A stretch of 64,000 nt of DNA from Buttiauxella sp. A111. Its GTDB lineage: Bacteria > Pseudomonadota > Gammaproteobacteria > Enterobacterales > Enterobacteriaceae. The notes beneath the pieces are model-generated. The model was not told where the DNA came from and made no database searches. It saw only the letters and a program-made list of their open reading frames with translations. The translations under genes and the position numbers were made by a program. This document shows, in pieces, positions 7,243 through 27,822 of this stretch. The stretch covers positions 930,001 through 994,000 of the forward strand of contig NZ_BJFN01000001.1 of assembly GCF_014189855.1 (NCBI RefSeq), read 5' to 3'. Each line of letters starts with the position of its first letter. The first letter of the stretch is position 1.

Positions 7243-7250
7243 ATCAATCT

Positions 7251-7375
7251 ATACCCAAAATAATTCGAGTTGCAGGCAGGCGGCAAACTCAGGAATCCCC
7301 AGGAGCTTACTTGAGTAAGTGACTGGGGTGAGTGAGTGCAGCCAACGCACATGCAACTTGAAGTATGAAGGGTAT
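7251..7375. repeat. ERIC element 2, abutting the mglC stop codon
   Basis: Full-length ERIC with terminal ATACCC/GGGTAT, the GGAGCTTACTTGAGTAAGTG centre and GCAGCCAACGCACATGCAAC. Its last base (7375) is also the last base of the mglC stop codon, so the element forms the mgl mRNA 3' untranslated region. Confidence 0.93.
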
Positions 7376-15650: not shown

Positions 15651-15773
15651 TACCCAAAATAATTCGAGTTGCGGGAAGGCGGCAAGTGAACGAATCCCCG
15701 GGAGCTTACTAAAGTAAGTGACTGGGGTGACTGAACGCAGCCAACGCGCATGCAGCTTGAAGTATGAAGGGTA
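15651..15773. repeat. ERIC element 3
   Basis: ERIC with ACCC/GGGT ends, GGGAGCTTACTAAAGTAAGTG centre and GCAGCCAACGCGCATGCAGC. It fills the divergent gap between the MFS gene and yeiG, ending 18 bases before the yeiG start, so the yeiG ribosome-binding region begins right after it. Confidence 0.93.
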
Positions 15774-15791
15774 TAAATAAGGAACCTCTGG

Positions 15792-16630: not shown

Positions 16631-16714
16631 GCCCTCACCCTAGCCCTCTCCCAAGGGGAGAGGGGATAGCCCGGTGTTCTCCCTCTCCCCTTGGGAGAGG
16701 GTCGGGGTGAGGGG
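16631..16714. repeat. GC-rich palindromic intergenic repeat, copy 2
   Basis: A long inverted repeat with arms GCCCTCACCCTAGCCCTCTC and GAGAGGGTCGGGGTGAGGGG and an inner CTCTCC hairpin. Closely related to the copy at 1108-1185. It lies between convergent yeiG and cirA and probably serves as a two-way transcription end. Confidence 0.75.
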
Positions 16715-18690: not shown

Positions 18691-18837
18691 TCCTTTCTCC
18701 ATGAGGTGAATAGCAAACTTTAACAATGGACTACGCTCACATTCCTTGATGCGTCTCAGGCTACTTTGGCCACAGACGGCAGGCTTAACTCATCGACATC
18801 CAGCCGAGGAAAAGCGTGGCGACACCATAAATTAAAC

Positions 18838-18856
18838 GAGAATGGTTATCAATCAA
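18838..18856 (-). promoter_or_regulatory. Fur box of cirA
   Basis: GAGAATGGTTATCAATCAA matches 13 of 19 positions of the Fur consensus, about 150 bp upstream of the cirA start. Iron repression through Fur is well established for E. coli cirA. Confidence 0.7.
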
Positions 18857-18930
18857 ATTGTTAAATTTTGTAATGTATCGCGTGGAGTTGTAACCGGGGA
18901 ATTTTGCTGAGGTTTGATGTTGCAAGAATC

Positions 18931-18968
18931 AGCCCTCATCCATTTTTCACCTGGTTTGGATGAGGGCT
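18931..18968 (-). terminator. Hairpin at the end of the yia operon
   Basis: An 11 bp perfect stem AGCCCTCATCC/GGATGAGGGCT with a 16-base loop, starting eight bases beyond the yiaS stop. There is no strong T-run, so it may end or stabilise the operon message. Confidence 0.6.
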
Positions 18969-18976
18969 TGTGATTG

Positions 18977-19672
18977 TTACTGACCGTAATAGGCGCTTTT
19001 ACCGTGTTTGCGTAAATAGTGTTTATCGAGCAATTGCGGCTGCATATCACCCAATTGTGGGGTTAATTGCGTGGAAAACAGCCCCATGTAGGCGCACTCT
19101 TCCAGAACCACCGCGTTATGCACCGCATCTGCAGCGTCTTTCCCCCAGGCAAACGGGCCGTGGGCATTGACCAGCACCGCTGGAACTTGCAACGGGTCGA
19201 TATCCCGCTCAATAAACGTCTGAATAATCACTTCGCCTGTCTGATGCTCATATTCTCCGGCAATTTCTTCCTGCGTCATCAAGCGCGTACAGGGGATCGT
19301 GCCATAGAAATAGTCCGCATGTGTGGTGCCCCAGGCCGGTAAATCACGCCCGGCCTGAGCCCAAATAGTGGCATGACGTGAATGGGTGTGAACAATGCCG
19401 CCGATGCCCGGGAAACGGCGGTATAGCGCGAGATGCGTTGCGGTATCCGATGACGGTTTTTTGCAGCCTTCCACCACCGCACCGCTTTGCAAATCCACCA
19501 CGACCATATCCTCGGCGCGCATTCCGTCGTATTCCACGCCCGATGGCTTAATCACCACCAAACCCTGTTCGCGGTCGATAGCGCTGACATTCCCCCAGGT
19601 AAACGTCACCAAATGATGGGCAGGCAGGGCAAGATTAGCCTCCAACACCTGCTGCTTTAATTGCTCTAACAT
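18977..19672 (-). CDS. sgbE: L-ribulose-5-phosphate 4-epimerase YiaS (SgbE)
   Basis: 231 aa, the same length as E. coli SgbE; class II aldolase/AraD family. It converts L-ribulose 5-phosphate to D-xylulose 5-phosphate, which enters the pentose phosphate pathway. Zinc ligands are in VHTHSRHAT (two His) and NAHGPFAWG. Other visible family segments are PSGVEYDGM and [17 protein letters not shown]. It is last in the operon and overlaps the upstream yiaR by seven bases. Confidence 0.95.
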
Positions 19673-20526
19673 ACGAATCCCCCTTCCTGCATGCGCTCTT
19701 CAATCCAGCGCCGCGCCTGAATGATCTCCAGCACGGGCTCTTTCGCTTTCTCCGTCCACATTTCCACCAGAAATGCCCCACGATAATTGAGCTGCTTTAA
19801 TGTGCGGAACACGCCAACGAAATCGACGCAACCCTCGCCAAAGGGCACATCGCGAAATTGCCCTGCGCTGGTTGCTGTGACTAACTGAGTATCTTTGAGA
19901 TGAATGGCCGCGATACGGTCAATGCCAAGAGTAAGCTCTGCCGACACGTCATTGCCCCAGGCGCTGAGATTGCCGACATCGGGATAAACGCTGAACCAAG
20001 GCGACGAAAGCAGGTTGTCCCACTTTTTCCATTTGGTTATCGAATTCATAAATTCGGTATCCATAATTTCGACCGCCAGCATCACTTGCGCACCTGCCGC
20101 CTGTTCTACCGCCCACGCCAGCCCTTCAGCAAAACGTTGCTGTGTACCCTCGTCACGCTCTTCGTAATAGACGTCGTAACCTGCGAGCTGAATGGTGCGG
20201 ATCCCTAAATCACGGGCCAGCTTAATTGCTTTGCTCATCACCTCGCGGGCTCGCTCGCGCACAGTTTCATCGTGGCTGCCAAACGGGAAGCGACGGTGTG
20301 CTGAAAGGCACATCGACGGAATAGTGACGCCACTTTCCAGCATCGCTTCCACTAACGAAGCGCGTTGGGTGGTGCTCCACTCCAGACGTGCAAGGCGTTC
20401 GTCAGTTTCGTCGAGCGACATTTCGACAAAATCAAAACCACAGCTTTTTGCCAGCGCCAGACGTTCCGGCCAGGAGAGGTGTTTCGGCAGAGCTTTTTCG
20501 TAGATACCTAATGGATGGACTCTCAT
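19666..20526 (-). CDS. sgbU: L-ribulose-5-phosphate 3-epimerase (L-xylulose-5-phosphate 3-epimerase) YiaR (SgbU)
   Basis: 286 aa TIM-barrel of the UlaE/SgbU group. It interconverts L-xylulose 5-phosphate and L-ribulose 5-phosphate. Metal-binding acidic residues fall in [29 protein letters not shown] and FLVEMWTE. The N-terminus [20 protein letters not shown] is typical of the group. It starts two bases after the yiaQ stop. Confidence 0.94.
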
Positions 20527-20528
20527 CG

Positions 20529-21182
20529 TTATGCCCCCCAGATGTCACGAATTTGCGTCTGGAAATCTTGTGCCACATGCTGCGGATTTGCAGCACCTGA
20601 CAGTGCGCGTCCAGCGATAAACGCTTTCACTTTGATATCGCGGAACAGCGGTAGATCCTGCGGTGTGATGCCGCCGGTAATCGAGAGTTCAAGCCCAATA
20701 TCCGACAGAGTTTTCATGCGCGCTAAATCGGCTTCACCCCAGGTTTGCCCACTGGCTTGTGCATCACGCCCTCGGTGGTAAATTGCCTGGCGGATCCCGG
20801 CTTTATGCCAGGCGCGGGCGTCGTCAAAAGTCCAGTTGCCAAACAACTCAATCTGGATCTCCCCTCCCCGATCCATTGCTACCTGATGTGCTTTTTCAAC
20901 CGTAGCCAGCGGCGCGGCACAGATGACCGTCATCCAGTTGGCACCCGCATCAAACGCTTGTTTGGCCAGCGTTTCTCCCGCATCAGCCACTTTCCAGTCG
21001 GCGACGATAATTTTATGTGGGCAGAGTTTTCGTAGCTGGCGCACCGCTTCCAGGCCTTCGGTCAAACACAAGAGCGTTCCCGCTTCGATAATATCGACGC
21101 TATCGCGCAACAACAGGGCGTCGCTCAATGCGGGTGGGAGCTCGGTGTAGTCAAGAGCAAGCTGTAACAAAGGACGGCTCAT
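20529..21182 (-). CDS. sgbH: 3-keto-L-gulonate-6-phosphate decarboxylase YiaQ (SgbH)
   Basis: 217 aa (E. coli SgbH 220). Member of the orotidine-5'-phosphate decarboxylase suprafamily that decarboxylates 3-keto-L-gulonate 6-phosphate to L-xylulose 5-phosphate. The active-site set is intact: Asp11 in LALDYTEL, Glu33 in IIEAGT, the DxKxxD motif in ADWKVADAG, and the His/Arg pair in IYHRGRDAQ. Its start overlaps the upstream kinase stop in an ATGA-type junction. Confidence 0.95.
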   Translation of the reverse strand: MSRPLLQLALDYTELPPALSDALLLRDSVDIIEAGTLLCLTEGLEAVRQLRKLCPHKIIVADWKVADAGETLAKQAFDAGANWMTVICAAPLATVEKAHQVAMDRGGEIQIELFGNWTFDDARAWHKAGIRQAIYHRGRDAQASGQTWGEADLARMKTLSDIGLELSITGGITPQDLPLFRDIKVKAFIAGRALSGAANPQHVAQDFQTQIRDIWGA

Positions 21183-22696
21183 AATGTGGATTCCTTGAGG
21201 GGTTTAAGCGATGCGCAGCGAGCGTGGTAGCTCTGCAACGATTCAACAAGTAATTGGTATTTTTGGTATTTTTCCTGGTAAGCCAGCCAGGCTGCAGGAT
21301 CGGGTTGGATAACGCGCGTAGCGTGAGTGAGTTGCTGCTGCGCCTGCGCAAAACTGGCGAACTCCCCCGTACCGACCAACGCGGCCAGTGCCGCCCCCAG
21401 ACAACCGGTTTCTTCAACCTGCGGCAGCTCTACGGGCAGGCCGCTGACATCCGCCAGCATTTGCATCCAGACGTCAGAATGTGCCGGGCCGCCGGTCACG
21501 CGCAGCGTTTTGGCAGTCTGAAAACGTTCACGCATCCGGTTGAGGTGCGTCATATGGCTGAACACCACGCCTTCATACACCGCCTGAAGCAAATGCCCGC
21601 GATGGTGCGCGGACTGCAAACCATAAAAACCGCTGGTCATCTCGAGCCCTGCGTTGCTGCCATACAAAAAGGGAAGAAACATCACGGCGCTACCCGCTTT
21701 GGGGAGAGCTGCAACCGCACTGTTGATTTCGTCAAAACTCAGACTTCCACACTGCGCGGTCAGCCATTCGAGGTTGGCTGACGATGTTGGGCTGGCTTCG
21801 TGAACAATAAACTGGCCGGGGGAGACAAAACGCCCATAAACATGAGGATGGGATTCTTGCTGGCTTATGCCATTGGCAATACCGCTGGTGACCGCCCAGG
21901 TTCCCATTACTGCGTTAAGTGCGGTTTCATCATGCAGACCGGCACAAAGTGCGGTAGAAACCACATCGAACAAGCCGCCAACAACGGGAGTCCCCGCCGC
22001 CAGACCGGTTAAGGCGGCAACATCCGATGTGATTTCCCCGCAAAGTTGACTCGACCCCACCACTGGCGGTAGCGCCGGAAAAACTTCATCAATATCCAAC
22101 CATGACAGGAGCTGCGGGTCATATTCTCCCGTGTTCATGTTGTAGAAATTGGACTCGGAAATATTGCTCTCTTCACATCCCTTCACGCCCGTCAGGCACC
22201 AGCGCAGATAGTCATGGGCCATCATCACGGTGCCAATTTGTTGATAACGCTCCGGTTGATGCTGTTTTATCCAGCGCAGCAACGAAACGGGATGCCCTGT
22301 CCACAGCGTCTGACGTGTGTGTGGGTAAAGCTGTTCAGGAATACGATCCCGCTGCCAGTCGCTGACGATATTCAGCGCCCGACGATCGGAGGAAAGCATC
22401 GCATACCCTAACGGACGATCATTTTTATCAAGCAAAAACAGCCCCTTACCCTGAGCCGAAATGCCAATACCTTTGATCTGTTCGCCACCGATCCCACAGC
22501 GCTTGAGCAATGTGGCAATCGTGTCGGCACAACATTGCCACAGCGCGTGCATATCGCGTTCTGCCCAGCCGGGTTGCTCGCAGAGAGTCGCTAAAGCCTG
22601 ACGATGGATGGCATATTCCCGGCCCTGCTGGTCGTACAACCCTGCTTTGAGATAGGTTCCTCCGCAGTCGATGCCCAGCCAGAATAGTTGTTTCAT
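21179..22696 (-). CDS. lyxK: L-xylulose/3-keto-L-gulonate kinase LyxK (YiaP)
   Basis: 505 aa from ATG 22696 (E. coli LyxK 498). The frame extends to 22795 but would run through a long hairpin, and an AAGAG-type ribosome-binding site precedes 22696. FGGY carbohydrate kinase: N-terminal phosphate loop GIDCGGTYLKAGLYD (residues 9-23), then GISAQGKGL and C-terminal VTGGPAHSDVWMQMLADV. In the yia pathway the enzyme phosphorylates 3-keto-L-gulonate (E. coli LyxK also uses L-xylulose). It stands between the permease gene and the decarboxylase. Confidence 0.93.
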   Translation of the reverse strand: MKQLFWLGIDCGGTYLKAGLYDQQGREYAIHRQALATLCEQPGWAERDMHALWQCCADTIATLLKRCGIGGEQIKGIGISAQGKGLFLLDKNDRPLGYAMLSSDRRALNIVSDWQRDRIPEQLYPHTRQTLWTGHPVSLLRWIKQHQPERYQQIGTVMMAHDYLRWCLTGVKGCEESNISESNFYNMNTGEYDPQLLSWLDIDEVFPALPPVVGSSQLCGEITSDVAALTGLAAGTPVVGGLFDVVSTALCAGLHDETALNAVMGTWAVTSGIANGISQQESHPHVYGRFVSPGQFIVHEASPTSSANLEWLTAQCGSLSFDEINSAVAALPKAGSAVMFLPFLYGSNAGLEMTSGFYGLQSAHHRGHLLQAVYEGVVFSHMTHLNRMRERFQTAKTLRVTGGPAHSDVWMQMLADVSGLPVELPQVEETGCLGAALAALVGTGEFASFAQAQQQLTHATRVIQPDPAAWLAYQEKYQKYQLLVESLQSYHARCASLKPLKESTL

Positions 22697-22730
22697 TGTT
22701 TTTCTCTTTTCAGTACAAACCTGCTGGTGG

Positions 22731-22795
22731 ATGACGCTAACGCTTATTCCCTGACAAGAACGACCCCATTCCCGGTCAGATAAGCGAAGCGTCAT
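22731..22795 (-). promoter_or_regulatory. Long intercistronic hairpin between permease gene and lyxK
   Basis: Nested inverted repeats: ATGACGCT (22731-22738) with AGCGTCAT (22788-22795), CGCTTA (22741-22746) with TAAGCG (22781-22786), and CTGAC with GTCAG inside. Together they form one extended imperfect stem inside the operon. Possible role in RNA processing or segmental stability; inferred. Confidence 0.7.
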
Positions 22796-22806
22796 CAGAT
22801 AAAAAC

Positions 22807-24135
22807 TCAGTGTGCGGTGCGGGTTAGCGGTGCATCAGGTTCAGCCAGGTTAATGCTGTTCGGAGCATCACATTTCGCAGGCAACAACAGCGCCAGCAGC
22901 GAAGCTATCGCCAGTGAAATCGCCAGGCAGTAAACACCCGCATCTTTGCTGTAGAAGGTAATCAATACACCAACGGCATAAGGCCCACAGAACCCACCGA
23001 GATTACCCAGCGCGTTGATTACGCCTCGCGCACCACCGGCCATTTCTGCGCTAAACAGACGAGCCGGGATCGTCCAGAACACCCCAGCAGCAGACTGTAA
23101 GAACACACCGCAGCCGACCAGCGCCGCATAGGAGAGCCAAATGTGTTCTTTGAGCACAACAGACATGAACATGCACAGTGCGAAGCCCATCAGCGGCAGC
23201 GCGACAAACAGTTTGCGTTTACCGGTACGGTCAGAAAGTGAGGAGAACAGGAACATGCCGCCCATCGCTCCGACATACGGCAGAATGGCTAACATCCCCA
23301 CCTGCCCCATGGTGCTATGGGTTAACTCTTTGAGAATGGTCGGCAACCACAGGGTGTAGCCGTAAATCCCGGTCTGATAGAAGAAATTGAGTGCGATGAG
23401 TTGCCACATGGTTCTGTCTGAAAGCACGGTACGTAACGAAGCATTTTTGACGGCGGTCGTGGCGAGTTGTTTTTGCTCAGCACTGAGCGTGGCAATCAGC
23501 CATTTTTTCTCTCTTTCATCTATCCAGCGTGCCTCTTGTGGGCGGTCACAGACCGTCAACGACCACAGCACTAATACGACAGCTGAAAGCAAACCTTCGA
23601 TAATGAACAGCCAGCGCCAGTCCATTGCCGAGATAATCCAGCCGGAAAGCGGTGCAGTGATAATCCCGGCGATCGGCACAAACATGATAACAATGGCATT
23701 AGCACGCCCACGTTCAGCGTCCGGGAACCAGTTGCTGATCATTGTCAGCACCACAGGCAACATCCCCCCTTCAGCAACACCTAACGCGAAGCGTAAAAAC
23801 AACAACTGGTACTGGTTTGTAATTAATCCTGTAAGAATCGAAATAATGACCCAGGCCACCAGCGACCAGCCAATAAATTTTTTGCCGCTACCGTGAACGG
23901 CAATTTTCCCGCCGGGCACCTGCAAAAATAAATAACCGATGAAAAAGATACCGCCAGCAAGCCCCGCCATAGTGGCAGAAATACCTAAATCACTGTCCAT
24001 TCCTCCCGGCATAGCAAAGGCAATATTCACCCTGTCCATGTAAGAAATAATACAAGTGATTAAGATTGGCGGAATAATCCTTAGCCAACGCTGGCGCGGG
24101 ATGTCATTTTTTTGGGTAACAGAGTGAGTATTCAT
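22807..24135 (-). CDS. MFS permease (anion:cation symporter type) of the yia operon
   Basis: 442 aa, 12 predicted membrane segments. The N-terminal YMDRVNIAFAMPGG resembles the anion:cation symporter group of MFS carriers, which carry sugar acids such as galactonate and glucarate. Loop 4-5 carries FLRFALGVAEGGMLPVVLTM. It replaces the TRAP transporter genes yiaMNO of E. coli K-12, so it most likely imports 2,3-diketo-L-gulonate or a related ascorbate product. Klebsiella yia operons have two extra genes named yiaX1 and yiaX2 at this place; I cannot say from memory which name fits which gene. Confidence 0.88.
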   Translation of the reverse strand: MNTHSVTQKNDIPRQRWLRIIPPILITCIISYMDRVNIAFAMPGGMDSDLGISATMAGLAGGIFFIGYLFLQVPGGKIAVHGSGKKFIGWSLVAWVIISILTGLITNQYQLLFLRFALGVAEGGMLPVVLTMISNWFPDAERGRANAIVIMFVPIAGIITAPLSGWIISAMDWRWLFIIEGLLSAVVLVLWSLTVCDRPQEARWIDEREKKWLIATLSAEQKQLATTAVKNASLRTVLSDRTMWQLIALNFFYQTGIYGYTLWLPTILKELTHSTMGQVGMLAILPYVGAMGGMFLFSSLSDRTGKRKLFVALPLMGFALCMFMSVVLKEHIWLSYAALVGCGVFLQSAAGVFWTIPARLFSAEMAGGARGVINALGNLGGFCGPYAVGVLITFYSKDAGVYCLAISLAIASLLALLLPAKCDAPNSINLAEPDAPLTRTAH

Positions 24136-24227
24136 AATTTATTCTCGATTAAAATAAACAGAACCTGGCACGCCTTTCCATATAGGAAAAGAATGTTTTT
24201 TACATCTGCGAATAATGACTTTTATTA

Positions 24228-25193
24228 TTATGTTAACGTGCTATTTAATGCAGAACGCAATGCCGCGACACCATCTTTTAAAATAGCTACACGGTGTTCC
24301 ACAGAAGCAATTGGATTTATTTCCAGTAGTTTAATGCCGATAAAACTCAACGATGCAGGCGAAATATCTTTCAGCATTTCTCTGGCACGTTCCACTGTTA
24401 ATAGACTTTCAATGCAACCCGCTTCGCTGCCATTAAATGGGGCGAAAGGGGCATGCGAATCCTGCCATTCACCGTACTCACCACGAGGTGCAGTGCCTGA
24501 AAACATCAGTGCGGAAAGCTTCCCGGCTTGCTGGCACTGTTTTGCGTGTGCCAGTGGAAGTGTTGTGTTGCGGCCTTCAATGGCGGAGCGGGCCCAGTTG
24601 ATGCACATTCCCACATTTCGGTCAGTGATTGCTTTGAGCTCTTCTTCCAGCGGGAGAAAACCCTTGCGTGCTGCTGGTTGTGTCATGGCATCGCAATGTT
24701 CAACAACCAATTCGCACGACCAGTCCCAACTTTGTAGTTCAGCAAGCGATCGAGCGAAACACTCAGCCATAGACGAAACATCGGTTTCCCCCGCCAGCGG
24801 CGCGGCCTGCAATTCCAGTGCGATCACCTTTTGTTTACCGAAGCGATCGTTAGTACGGTTAATTTTTTCCCATATATGGCGATAGTAATCCACACAACTT
24901 TTACGCTGTGCTTCATCGCTCGATGCCAGGCCAAATCCGCCATTTGCACCGCGTCGCCGCATCGTTTCCATAATGGCGGTAACGACGATTTGCCAGTCAT
25001 CCGGCGTATGTTTAAACAGATATTCATCGCCATAAGGGTGTAAATTCTCAAGGCAAGGTTGCTCAAGACCGCGAATCCCTGGGACATCCGCTAATCTGCG
25101 CCAGAATAGCGTTTCTTGTTCTTCTCCTTGTTGATGAAACGAAGGTGCGCAAGGATACGCGCCAATAATAAAACCGGCGTTGTTCTCTTTCAT
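24228..25193 (-). CDS. DUF4862-like protein of the yia operon (possible TIM-barrel sugar enzyme)
   Basis: 321 aa, soluble, no signal peptide or membrane segment. I recognise the [19 protein letters not shown] start as DUF4862, a family of unknown function found in Klebsiella and Enterobacter yia operons. Alternating beta/alpha pattern and acidic/His clusters ([31 protein letters not shown]) suggest a xylose-isomerase-like TIM barrel, but no proven active site can be named. It lies 92 bp upstream of the permease gene and is bracketed with it by two hairpins. Likely job: an epimerase, isomerase or lactonase acting on ascorbate breakdown products (inference). Confidence 0.75.
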
Positions 25194-25227
25194 TGTGTGT
25201 CCTTTATCCTTTTGATATACAGAGCAA

Positions 25228-25291
25228 CTTCTATATGCAGCCAGGTGGCAATCAGATGAATGAGAGCAGCCAATACCCCTGCATATAGAAG
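25228..25291 (-). promoter_or_regulatory. Intercistronic hairpin with perfect 13 bp stem after yiaL
   Basis: CTTCTATATGCAG (25228-25240) pairs with CTGCATATAGAAG (25279-25291), loop 38 bases, in the 112 bp gap between yiaL and the DUF4862 gene. No T-run follows, so it is more likely a processing or attenuation structure than a full terminator. Confidence 0.75.
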
Positions 25292-25305
25292 AGCGATGTG
25301 TATAT

Positions 25306-25785
<480 letters not shown>

Positions 25786-26784
25786 CTATAGCGCCTGAAT
25801 TCTTGCCCATACGCTGTCGTCAATGGTGATACCATTTTTGCGGTTTTCAGCCAGCAACCGGGTAAACTCATGGCCTGGCAGGCGCACCGCTTCGTCGGGA
25901 TTTGCACGTTCAGCGCTAACGACATAATCAACAATGCGCTGCAATTTGGCGTCTCGTGTTGGACCGTCGATGAGCTTATCAACTTCAATGGCAATAAAGA
26001 CCTGCGAGATGCCGTACTCATCGCTATTATCTTCCGTGACTTCAGCCACGGATGCGCCGTTAGAAAGCAGCGTCGCAATCATATCCAACACAATCGACAA
26101 CCCTGATCCTTTCCAGTATCCCATTGGCAAGATACGTCGGTTTTTCTCAACAATACCCGGCTCACGCGTGAGATTGCCTTCATCATCAAAGCCGCCATCG
26201 ACCGGAAGCTGACGCCCCGCCAGACGGTTCACTTCAAGCATTCCGTAGGAGAACATCGACATCGACATATCAACCATAGTGATAGGTTTGCCTGGAATGG
26301 CCACAATCAACGGGTTCGTCCCGATGCGACACTCTTTGGCACCCCACGGTGGCATCACCGCAATCGAGTTAGTCCAGCAAATACCGATGTAGCCCTGCTC
26401 TGCCGCCTGCCAACCGTAGCTTCCGCCACGCATCCAGTGGTTCGCATTACGCAGCGCCACAAGGCCAATGCCATGATCCGAAGCCAGCGAAATCGCGCGA
26501 TCCATCATCTTTTTCGCGGTCAGGTTGCCGATTGAACGATGAGCATCCCACTGCTCAATTGCGCCCAGGCGAGTGACGCACGTTGGTTGGGCATCCGGAA
26601 TAATGTCGCCCGCTTCCAGTTGCTGGATGAATCGAGGGAAACGGTTTACGCCATGTGAATACACGCCAGATTCGGTTGTTTGGGCAAACATCTGTGCGCA
26701 GTCACTCGCCGTTTCTGCGGCTACGCCACGTGCAAGCAATACTCTTTCGAACTCTTTCTTCAACTGCTCAAAGGTCACTTTCAT
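25786..26784 (-). CDS. dlgD: 2,3-diketo-L-gulonate reductase YiaK (DlgD)
   Basis: 332 aa, the same length as E. coli DlgD. NAD-dependent reductase of the malate/L-lactate dehydrogenase type-2 family that reduces 2,3-diketo-L-gulonate to 3-keto-L-gulonate. Catalytic His44 lies in [13 protein letters not shown]. The substrate and cofactor segments [14 protein letters not shown] and [13 protein letters not shown] are conserved. First gene of the operon, divergent from yiaJ. Confidence 0.96.
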
Positions 26785-26800
26785 GCCTGACTCCTGGTTT

Positions 26801-26967
26801 ACTCACGGGTGACGTGAGTGAATTTAGAACCTTAAATTTCACTATGCGAAATCTGATTTCAAAAATATACAGTTCAATTTTTAACAAGTCAAAGCATGAG
26901 CATTTTTTAAAAATCATTTAAATCAATGTGTTAATATTTGTCTGTTGAGATCGTGAACTAAGCCACA
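26801..26967. promoter_or_regulatory. yiaK-yiaJ divergent control region
   Basis: Three signals lie here. ACTCACG/CGTGAGT (26801-26819) is a perfect 7 bp inverted repeat just before yiaK. ATTTC-N7-GAAAT (26836-26852) is an operator candidate for the IclR-type YiaJ. CGTGA-N6-CCACA (26952-26967) is a CRP-like site with 8 of 10 matches. YiaJ repression and CRP activation of the yia operon are established in E. coli; assigning these sites is inference. Confidence 0.5.
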
Positions 26968-27012
26968 CTTTGCGCTACCATCAGAGCGCGGTGACATTTA
27001 GGGAAATGAGAG

Positions 27013-27822
27013 ATGAGCGATAAAGAAAGTGATGTGACCAAAGAAAAGGACAGACCGGCTGGCAGCCAGAGTTTATTCCGAGGGCTGCAGCTCATTGAGA
27101 TCCTCAGTAATTACCCCAACGGTTGCCCGCTGGCGCATTTATCTGAGTTGGCAGAATTGAATAAAAGTACCGTGCACCGCCTGTTACAGGGGTTACAGTC
27201 CTGCGGATACGTGACACCAGCGCCCGCAGCGGGGAGCTATCGCCTGACGACCAAGTTTATCTCGGTTGGGCAAAAAGCACTTTCGTCGTTAAATATCATT
27301 CACGTCGCAGCTCCGCATCTGGAAACGCTGAATATCGTCACCGGCGAGACGGTAAACTTTTCCAGTCGCGAAGACGATCATGCCATTCTGATCTATAAGC
27401 TCGAGCCCACCACGGGAATGCTGCGTACCAGAGCCTATATCGGCCAGCATATGCCGCTGTACTGCTCGGCAATGGGGAAAATTTATATGGCCTTTGGCCA
27501 CCCAGAGTATGTCGAGCAATACTGGGAGAGCCATCAGCAGGAGATCCAGCCTTTAACCCGCAATACCATCACCAACGTTGAGCAGATGTATCAGGAGTTA
27601 GAGCAGATCCGCGAGCAGAAAATGGCGATGGATCGGGAAGAGAACGAGTTGGGCGTTTCATGTATTGCGGTGCCGGTGTTTGATATTCACCATCGCGTGA
27701 GTTATTCGATTTCGATTTCGCTTTCAACGGCCAAGTTGCGCCAGGTGGGAGAGAAGAAGTTGTTGAAGCCGTTACAGGAAACCGCTGCCGCTATTTCGCG
27801 GGAATTGGGATTGAACGGTTAA
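27013..27822 (+). CDS. yiaJ: IclR-family repressor YiaJ (PlaR)
   Basis: 269 aa (E. coli YiaJ 282). N-terminal winged helix-turn-helix, about residues 20-75, with LAELNKSTVHRLLQGLQSCGYV, then the IclR effector domain with YIGQHMPLYCSAMGKIYMA and NELGVSCIAVPVFD. It represses yiaK-S; in Klebsiella the reported inducer is L-ascorbate 6-phosphate, formed by the Ula PTS. No ula PTS is in this window, so induction would need a distant locus. A shared terminator separates it from convergent lysP. Confidence 0.94.
   Translation: MSDKESDVTKEKDRPAGSQSLFRGLQLIEILSNYPNGCPLAHLSELAELNKSTVHRLLQGLQSCGYVTPAPAAGSYRLTTKFISVGQKALSSLNIIHVAAPHLETLNIVTGETVNFSSREDDHAILIYKLEPTTGMLRTRAYIGQHMPLYCSAMGKIYMAFGHPEYVEQYWESHQQEIQPLTRNTITNVEQMYQELEQIREQKMAMDREENELGVSCIAVPVFDIHHRVSYSISISLSTAKLRQVGEKKLLKPLQETAAAISRELGLNG

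Follow-up and report, generated by a model that had tools for sequence, protein, structure and literature searches.

Two long hairpins bracket a pair of genes inside the yia operon, a sugar-acid operon, of Buttiauxella sp. A111. Are they scars of the event that placed these genes there, signals that act in the mRNA, or elements with histories of their own? In the window, i.e. the whole stretch of 64,000 nucleotides that was analysed, the operon occupies the minus strand in the order yiaK-yiaL-X1(DUF4862)-X2(MFS)-lyxK-sgbH-sgbU-sgbE, with yiaJ divergent, and X1 and X2 lie between yiaL and lyxK, the place held by yiaMNO in E. coli K-12. The preliminary description was right about this placement and about the hairpins themselves, which are real and lie at 25228-25291 (13-nt perfect arms) and 22730-22796, with folds that beat 200 of 200 shuffles. 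The features concerned are as follows.

27013-27822, plus strand: yiaJ/plaR, divergent gene for an IclR-family regulator, named from its position next to yiaK, the same as in K-12
25786-26784, minus strand: yiaK, Ldh_2 family dehydrogenase (PF02615)
25306-25773, minus strand: yiaL, YhcH/YjgK/YiaL family (PF04074)
25216-25304, minus strand: internally deleted ERIC element of 89 nt, between yiaL and X1
24228-25193, minus strand: X1 (yiaX1 type), DUF4862 protein (PF16154, E 8e-93)
22807-24135, minus strand: X2 (yiaX2 type), MFS permease (MFS_1, PF07690, E 3.2e-66)
22726-22799, minus strand: BIME of two inverted, diverged REP units (22774-22799 and 22726-22749), between X2 and lyxK
21179-22696, minus strand: lyxK/yiaP, FGGY kinase, in its 505-aa reading
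18977-21182, minus strand: sgbH, sgbU and sgbE, overlapping or 2 nt apart
18931-18968, minus strand: 12-bp perfect stem past sgbE

The open frame of lyxK extends to 22795, through the BIME (538 aa); the alignment with the B. gaviniae gene begins at residue 1 of the 505-aa version, for which reason the start was set at 22696. Elsewhere in the operon the junctions measure -7 to 12 nt, except for X1-X2 with 92 nt; this gap folds at -14.7 kcal/mol and falls below the strict hairpin criterion (z<=-3 and <=-12 kcal/mol). The earlier statement that no comparable hairpin stands at the other junctions is hence borne out, the stem at 18931-18968 lying past the operon, where it is perhaps an end-of-operon hairpin.

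The reading put forward here is that the two hairpins very probably derive from two independent mobile-repeat insertions, a shortened ERIC and an older REP pair, into an ordinary yiaKLX1X2-lyxK-sgbHUE operon, where they may influence mRNA decay. The suggested exchange scar is replaced by two known repeat families, themselves ordinary, well known and dispersed, and X1 and the transporter turn out to be modules of their own.

How ordinary is the operon? The order yiaKLX1X2-lyxK-sgbHUE was found in 25 of the 27 X1 loci fetched; these 25 come from Klebsiella, Citrobacter, Enterobacter, Lelliottia, Raoultella, Yokenella, Salmonella diarizonae, Pseudocitrobacter, Pluralibacter and Buttiauxella. Gene order and the repressor YiaJ are also those of the Klebsiella pneumoniae operon yiaKLX1X2PQRS (Campos et al. 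2008, as described in PMC4324149), and the repeats that the window carries in both gaps find no mention in the available part of PMC4324149. The parts of the literature that were searched, with the original Klebsiella operon paper outside their scope, do not describe repeats within this operon, and we do not claim that they are unreported. The E. coli K-12 operon yiaKLMNO-lyxK-sgbHUE, as far as the accessible portion of PMC6958661 describes it, has the same flanking genes and regulator, but, unlike the window, it encodes a TRAP transporter, lacks X1 and leaves a gap of 3 nt between yiaO and lyxK. Within Buttiauxella the operon is patchy: YiaK occurs at 95-100% identity in three of the 12 genomes searched (the window genome counted), two have a YiaK relative of 47-48% in a different gene order, and seven gave no match at E<=1e-40. 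Between the window and B. gaviniae (L026), X1 (78%) and YiaL (81%) are far less conserved than YiaK, X2, SgbU and SgbE (95-97%), SgbH (90%) and LyxK (87%). A comparison of X1 with solved structures gave no match at E<=0.1, and an Rfam search of 18900-27100 at E<=5 returned one chance match only (ceN33, 18.8 bits, where the gathering score is 75).

The upstream hairpin has perfect arms of 13 nt (25228-25240 and 25279-25291) around a loop of 38 nt. No other pair with arms >=13 and loop <=60 exists in 18900-27100, and when this region was simulated 200 times with a first-order Markov model, a pair of this kind arose in just 3 runs. Folded as minus-strand RNA, 25205-25306 reaches a predicted -32.1 kcal/mol (z -3.48), a stability equalled by none of 200 shuffles. 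The hairpin is the centre of the element at 25216-25304, which starts 1 nt past the yiaL stop codon and has terminal TATA (TATACAC...CTGTATA at 25304 and 25216), its ends pairing in the predicted fold. The hairpin does not reach the AAGGATAAAGGA region ahead of the X1 start. The terminal inverted repeats span about 26 nt and are imperfect outside the perfect 13-bp inner stem. These are traits of ERIC (also IRU or RU-1), a MITE-like element: TATA ends, inverted ends with TGCAG, a TTGGCTGC block, a GCC(A/G)CCT block, an intergenic site and many matches in the window genome are all common to both.

Its own genome identifies the element best. Eight matches at E<=0.001 were found there, itself included; the seven other copies share its left part, and six of them continue into full-length ERIC with the core CACTTACTT.AGTAAG (one base changed in L058), a core missing from the window copy and from another shortened copy, L059. 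Alignment with one of these copies (L054) scores 90.4, and a slightly different stretch of the element scores 88.4 against a best of 44.6 among 500 shuffles. The end-to-end alignment with the 127-nt ERIC of E. coli (reference from the available Table 1a of PMC2759123) skips about 38 nt of the centre and scores 45.6, the best of 1000 one-strand shuffles reaching 39.4; this match is weaker, since with both strands allowed the window gap, shuffled 500 times, reached the score once. Because the full-length core palindrome CACTTACT...AGTAAG is absent and the whole measures 89 nt, the element is filed only as an internally deleted ERIC copy. The family is abundant and dispersed in this genome, with 40 scored matches, all at E<=7.1e-33, out of 212 first-look candidates, two of them inside the window (15651-15775 and 7250-7375), and with 61 pattern matches against 7 for the reversed control at two mismatches. 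TA flanks the window copy on both sides; the B. gaviniae gap is too diverged for a comparison of target-site duplications.

The window copy also departs from its relatives in its stem. The arms CTTCTATATGCAG / CTGCATATAGAAG differ in step from, for example, CTTCAAGATGCAG / CTGCATCTTGAAG in other ERIC copies, i.e. both sides have changed together. The arms could be scored in 27 of 48 distinct rows (57 entries originally), those anchored on both sides, the other 21 being unscorable; with positions numbered outward from TGCA, 12 of 13 are paired in the window copy and its duplicate (L073), as against 4 to 11 in the other 25 copies, all of which thus have a less perfect stem.

When did the ERIC arrive? 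The yiaL-X1 gap measures 112 nt and contains the element in the window genome and in the conspecific genome G099, the only ones among the loci compared to carry it there. In B. gaviniae the gap is 19 nt without an ERIC, in 25 loci of other genera it is 11-25 nt, and none of the 26 other-genus loci, all of them X1-bearing, has an ERIC at this junction. The expectation that hairpins would always flank the two genes thus fails on the upstream side, the hairpin being absent from B. gaviniae and 26 other-genus loci that have X1; on the downstream side many relatives have repeats (see below). Most simply, the shortened ERIC would have inserted in the window species once this and B. gaviniae had diverged, stretching a gap of about 20 nt to 112 nt and keeping the X1 start region clear of the hairpin; loss in B. 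gaviniae rather than gain in the window species is possible. The yiaL-X1 gap of Pluralibacter (L016, 5885-6000) also holds an insert, 116 nt long with inverted ends GGCTATCT...AGATAGCC, which is neither ERIC (168 of 500 shuffles scored as high) nor REP.

The downstream hairpin has another origin. Both REP units fold into one long hairpin, 22730-22796, and minus-strand RNA of 22725-22800 has a predicted stability of -35.2 kcal/mol (z -5.75) that none of 200 shuffles equalled. One arm aligns with a REP of the same genome (L038), and the X2-lyxK gap scores 42 against the REP consensus strings, twice the best of 200 shuffles (21). A tight REP pattern had only two matches in the window genome, and looser ones were then used: the core GGATAAGCGnnnCGYCATCC at <=2 mismatches matches 13 times in the window genome (G000), 13 in G099, 56 in B. 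gaviniae (G008), 120 in G002, 107 in G010, 234 in G019 and 53 in G011, the reversed pattern serving as control and giving 0 to 2 matches across genomes (G002, G010 and G008 0, G000 1). REP cores are scarce in the window species (13) compared with the two congeners G010 and G002 (107 and 120). A stricter core has matches in 28 of 29 genomes, E. albertii being the sole exception and the window genome having two; its controls gave none except one match in G122.

At the same site B. gaviniae has an exact REP core (G008:C7:6165-6184) and the GTAG tag in both units, a tag missing from both units of the window. In most REP families, according to the available part of PMC3733652, more than 90% of the members keep this tag at one unit end. 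Because both tags are lost, the window element is called a decayed BIME, named by descent, and because REPs are also few in the window genome, the naming of its units leans on the B. gaviniae copy. Two inverted units like GGATAAGCG-n-GCGTCATCC, in an intergenic position, downstream of one gene of an operon, agree with the GTAG-tagged enterobacterial REP/BIME superfamily as the same portion of PMC3733652 presents it; the lost tags, an extra base in one unit and the few family matches left in the species set the window copy apart. Nor is the stem strictly kept, since one of its bases differs in G099 and the fold there is weaker (z -2.9 versus -4.9 in the window). The REP pair would be the older insertion; B. 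gaviniae shares it, and in the window it has lost its GTAG tags.

Could the hairpins nevertheless be paired scars of a single exchange in which X1-X2 replaced yiaMNO as one cassette? The location of X1 and X2 at the place of K-12 yiaMNO, and the presence of X2 in 25 of the 27 X1 loci, are what one would expect from such an event, but the hairpins belong to unrelated repeat families and so are not paired scars, and the ERIC, found in the window species alone, is refuted as a scar by the 19-nt gap of B. gaviniae. For the BIME, a scar should have a counterpart at the other cassette edge, yet no matching repeat stands there in relatives: among 29 yiaL-X1 gaps, 24 are shorter than 25 nt and the five longer ones contain no REP. 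Replacement as a unit, the second element of the original proposal, founders on loci in which X1 is followed by yiaMNO, namely in E. albertii (L012), Pseudocitrobacter vendiensis (L025) and E. coli SC477 (L156), the yiaM, N and O genes of L012 and L025 being named by order, length and by-eye comparison with annotated operons. X1 has a match in at least 1050 of 5426 complete E. coli genomes, SC477 being the one fetched, a lower bound because it comes from megablast. In K-12, X1 is missing between yiaL and yiaM, and the scattered short alignments obtained there gave no convincing remnant of it. The exchange-scar reading is not supported and we regard it as extremely improbable; instead, the transporter alternates between the MFS and TRAP types and X1 has been gained and lost independently, which makes them separate modules.

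Several observations accompany these comparisons. In E. coli, this textbook operon is polymorphic for the presence or absence of X1. In K-12 (NC_000913; L155, 6212-6328) the yiaL-yiaM gap is 117 nt long and contains a palindrome with a fold of -31 kcal/mol; an ERIC remnant considered there is unconvincing, 8 and 36 of 1000 shuffles scoring as high on the two strands. Homologues of X2 occur on plasmids in 917 records, and the 15 matches listed are 50.7-76.8% identical. On the Pantoea agglomerans plasmid NZ_CP143415.1 (166413-167705), the annotation at the match, an X2 relative of 75.9% identity, shows an FGGY-family kinase gene. In G037, a genome given as 49% complete, X1 matches in four pieces (L032, L034-L036), which may reflect a broken gene or poor sequence.

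If the two insertions are unrelated, why is the X2-lyxK junction occupied so often? Alignment to the REP consensus strings detects a REP sequence, scoring above all 200 shuffles, in 21 of 27 X2-lyxK gaps and in 2 of 27 X1-X2 gaps; the stricter core at <=1 mismatch is present in 14 of 27 and 1 of 27, respectively, and at no other junction, the window and G099 needing two mismatches at X2-lyxK to match it. Folds of <=-14 kcal/mol characterise 25 of 27 X2-lyxK gaps versus 5 of 27 X1-X2 gaps (that of the window among the five). Where the REP is missing, something else may stand in its place: L009 and L027 have a CCCTCACCC...GAGAGGG palindrome, L023 a shorter look-alike, CCCTCTCCC...GGGAGAGGG, and L007 and L016 GC-rich hairpins that fail the REP test. 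The CCCTCACCC...GAGAGGG family pattern is itself dispersed, with 262, 153 and 209 matches in the genomes of L009, L027 and L023, 198 in the window genome and none in the controls. In the four TRAP-type (yiaMNO) operons examined, by contrast, the yiaO-lyxK gap is 3 nt and repeat-free (4/4).

It is conceivable, although we consider it doubtful, that the junction is under selection and retains whatever repeat family is available, the hairpin setting the 3' boundary of the mRNA segment upstream of it. The contrast with X1-X2 in REPs, cores and folds, the non-REP palindromes of L009, L027 and L023 and the tight TRAP-type junctions are what such selection would leave behind. Against it, few of the other junctions have room for a repeat (the REP test needs a gap of >=25 nt, and the four remaining junctions are always below that), and X2-lyxK may just tolerate insertion; the loci are related, which means that the counts are not independent; and just 14 of 27 X2-lyxK gaps pass the strict hairpin criterion, among them that of the window but not those of G099 and B. 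gaviniae. Furthermore, the gap of L011 has 16 nt, below the test size, and no repeat, and L008 has a weak fold despite half a REP. The REP strings were partly taken from these same X2-lyxK gaps, yet the core is genome-wide in 28 of 29 genomes. A fuller version, in which a functional slot is refilled repeatedly, mostly by REP pairs or singles and in a few cases by unrelated CCCTCACCC...GAGAGGG palindromes, since the MFS-type operon, unlike the TRAP-type, would need a hairpin uncoupling transporter from kinase mRNA, seems to us unlikely; if true, selfish repeats would have been convergently recruited as an operon segment divider. With related loci, short alternative junctions and shared consensus strings, the counts offer limited proof, and the recurrence is modestly interesting. 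Repeats at one and the same operon junction in many relatives make a compact natural test of whether REP-type sequences are kept for mRNA control or merely tolerated.

What, then, might the hairpins do in the RNA? A role as intrinsic terminators or as attenuators within the operon would fit their stable folds, but neither full hairpin is followed by a T-run, the one site that a terminator scan lists here has 5 pairs and lies within the BIME, and the number of terminator-like sites in 18800-27100 does not exceed chance (12 versus 9.0 +/- 3.3), which leaves this reading very unlikely. Effects on mRNA decay, more so at the REP site than at the ERIC, are plausible by analogy, and an RNA role, the other half of what had been proposed for the hairpins, is in this ordinary sense possible. 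REP hairpins in mRNA form a ribonuclease barrier and can attenuate transcription or stall ribosomes, as stated in the available part of PMC12306157. In Yersinia, according to the accessible section of a review by Delihas (PMC2229807), co-transcribed ERICs make the upstream transcript less stable by way of an RNase E site, an effect that depends on orientation, and the excerpt of PMC10969869 places this site in the 3' inverted repeat. By extension, the BIME hairpin would shield the 3' end of the yiaK-L-X1-X2 part of the mRNA from 3'-5' decay, and the ERIC would be near neutral or would weakly alter decay at the yiaL end.

Three further observations concern repeats in and around these operons. 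In Enterobacter mori (L008) the X2 frame seems to enter the REP, and the repeat may encode the C-terminus of X2. REP-type repeats also lie in the X1-X2 gap of L015 and L019 (Salmonella diarizonae and Klebsiella indica). Finally, a dispersed CCCTCACCCYRRCCCTCTCCC palindrome family has members at 16632-16713 and 1163-1183 of the window and 198 matches in the window genome (G000), with none for the control.
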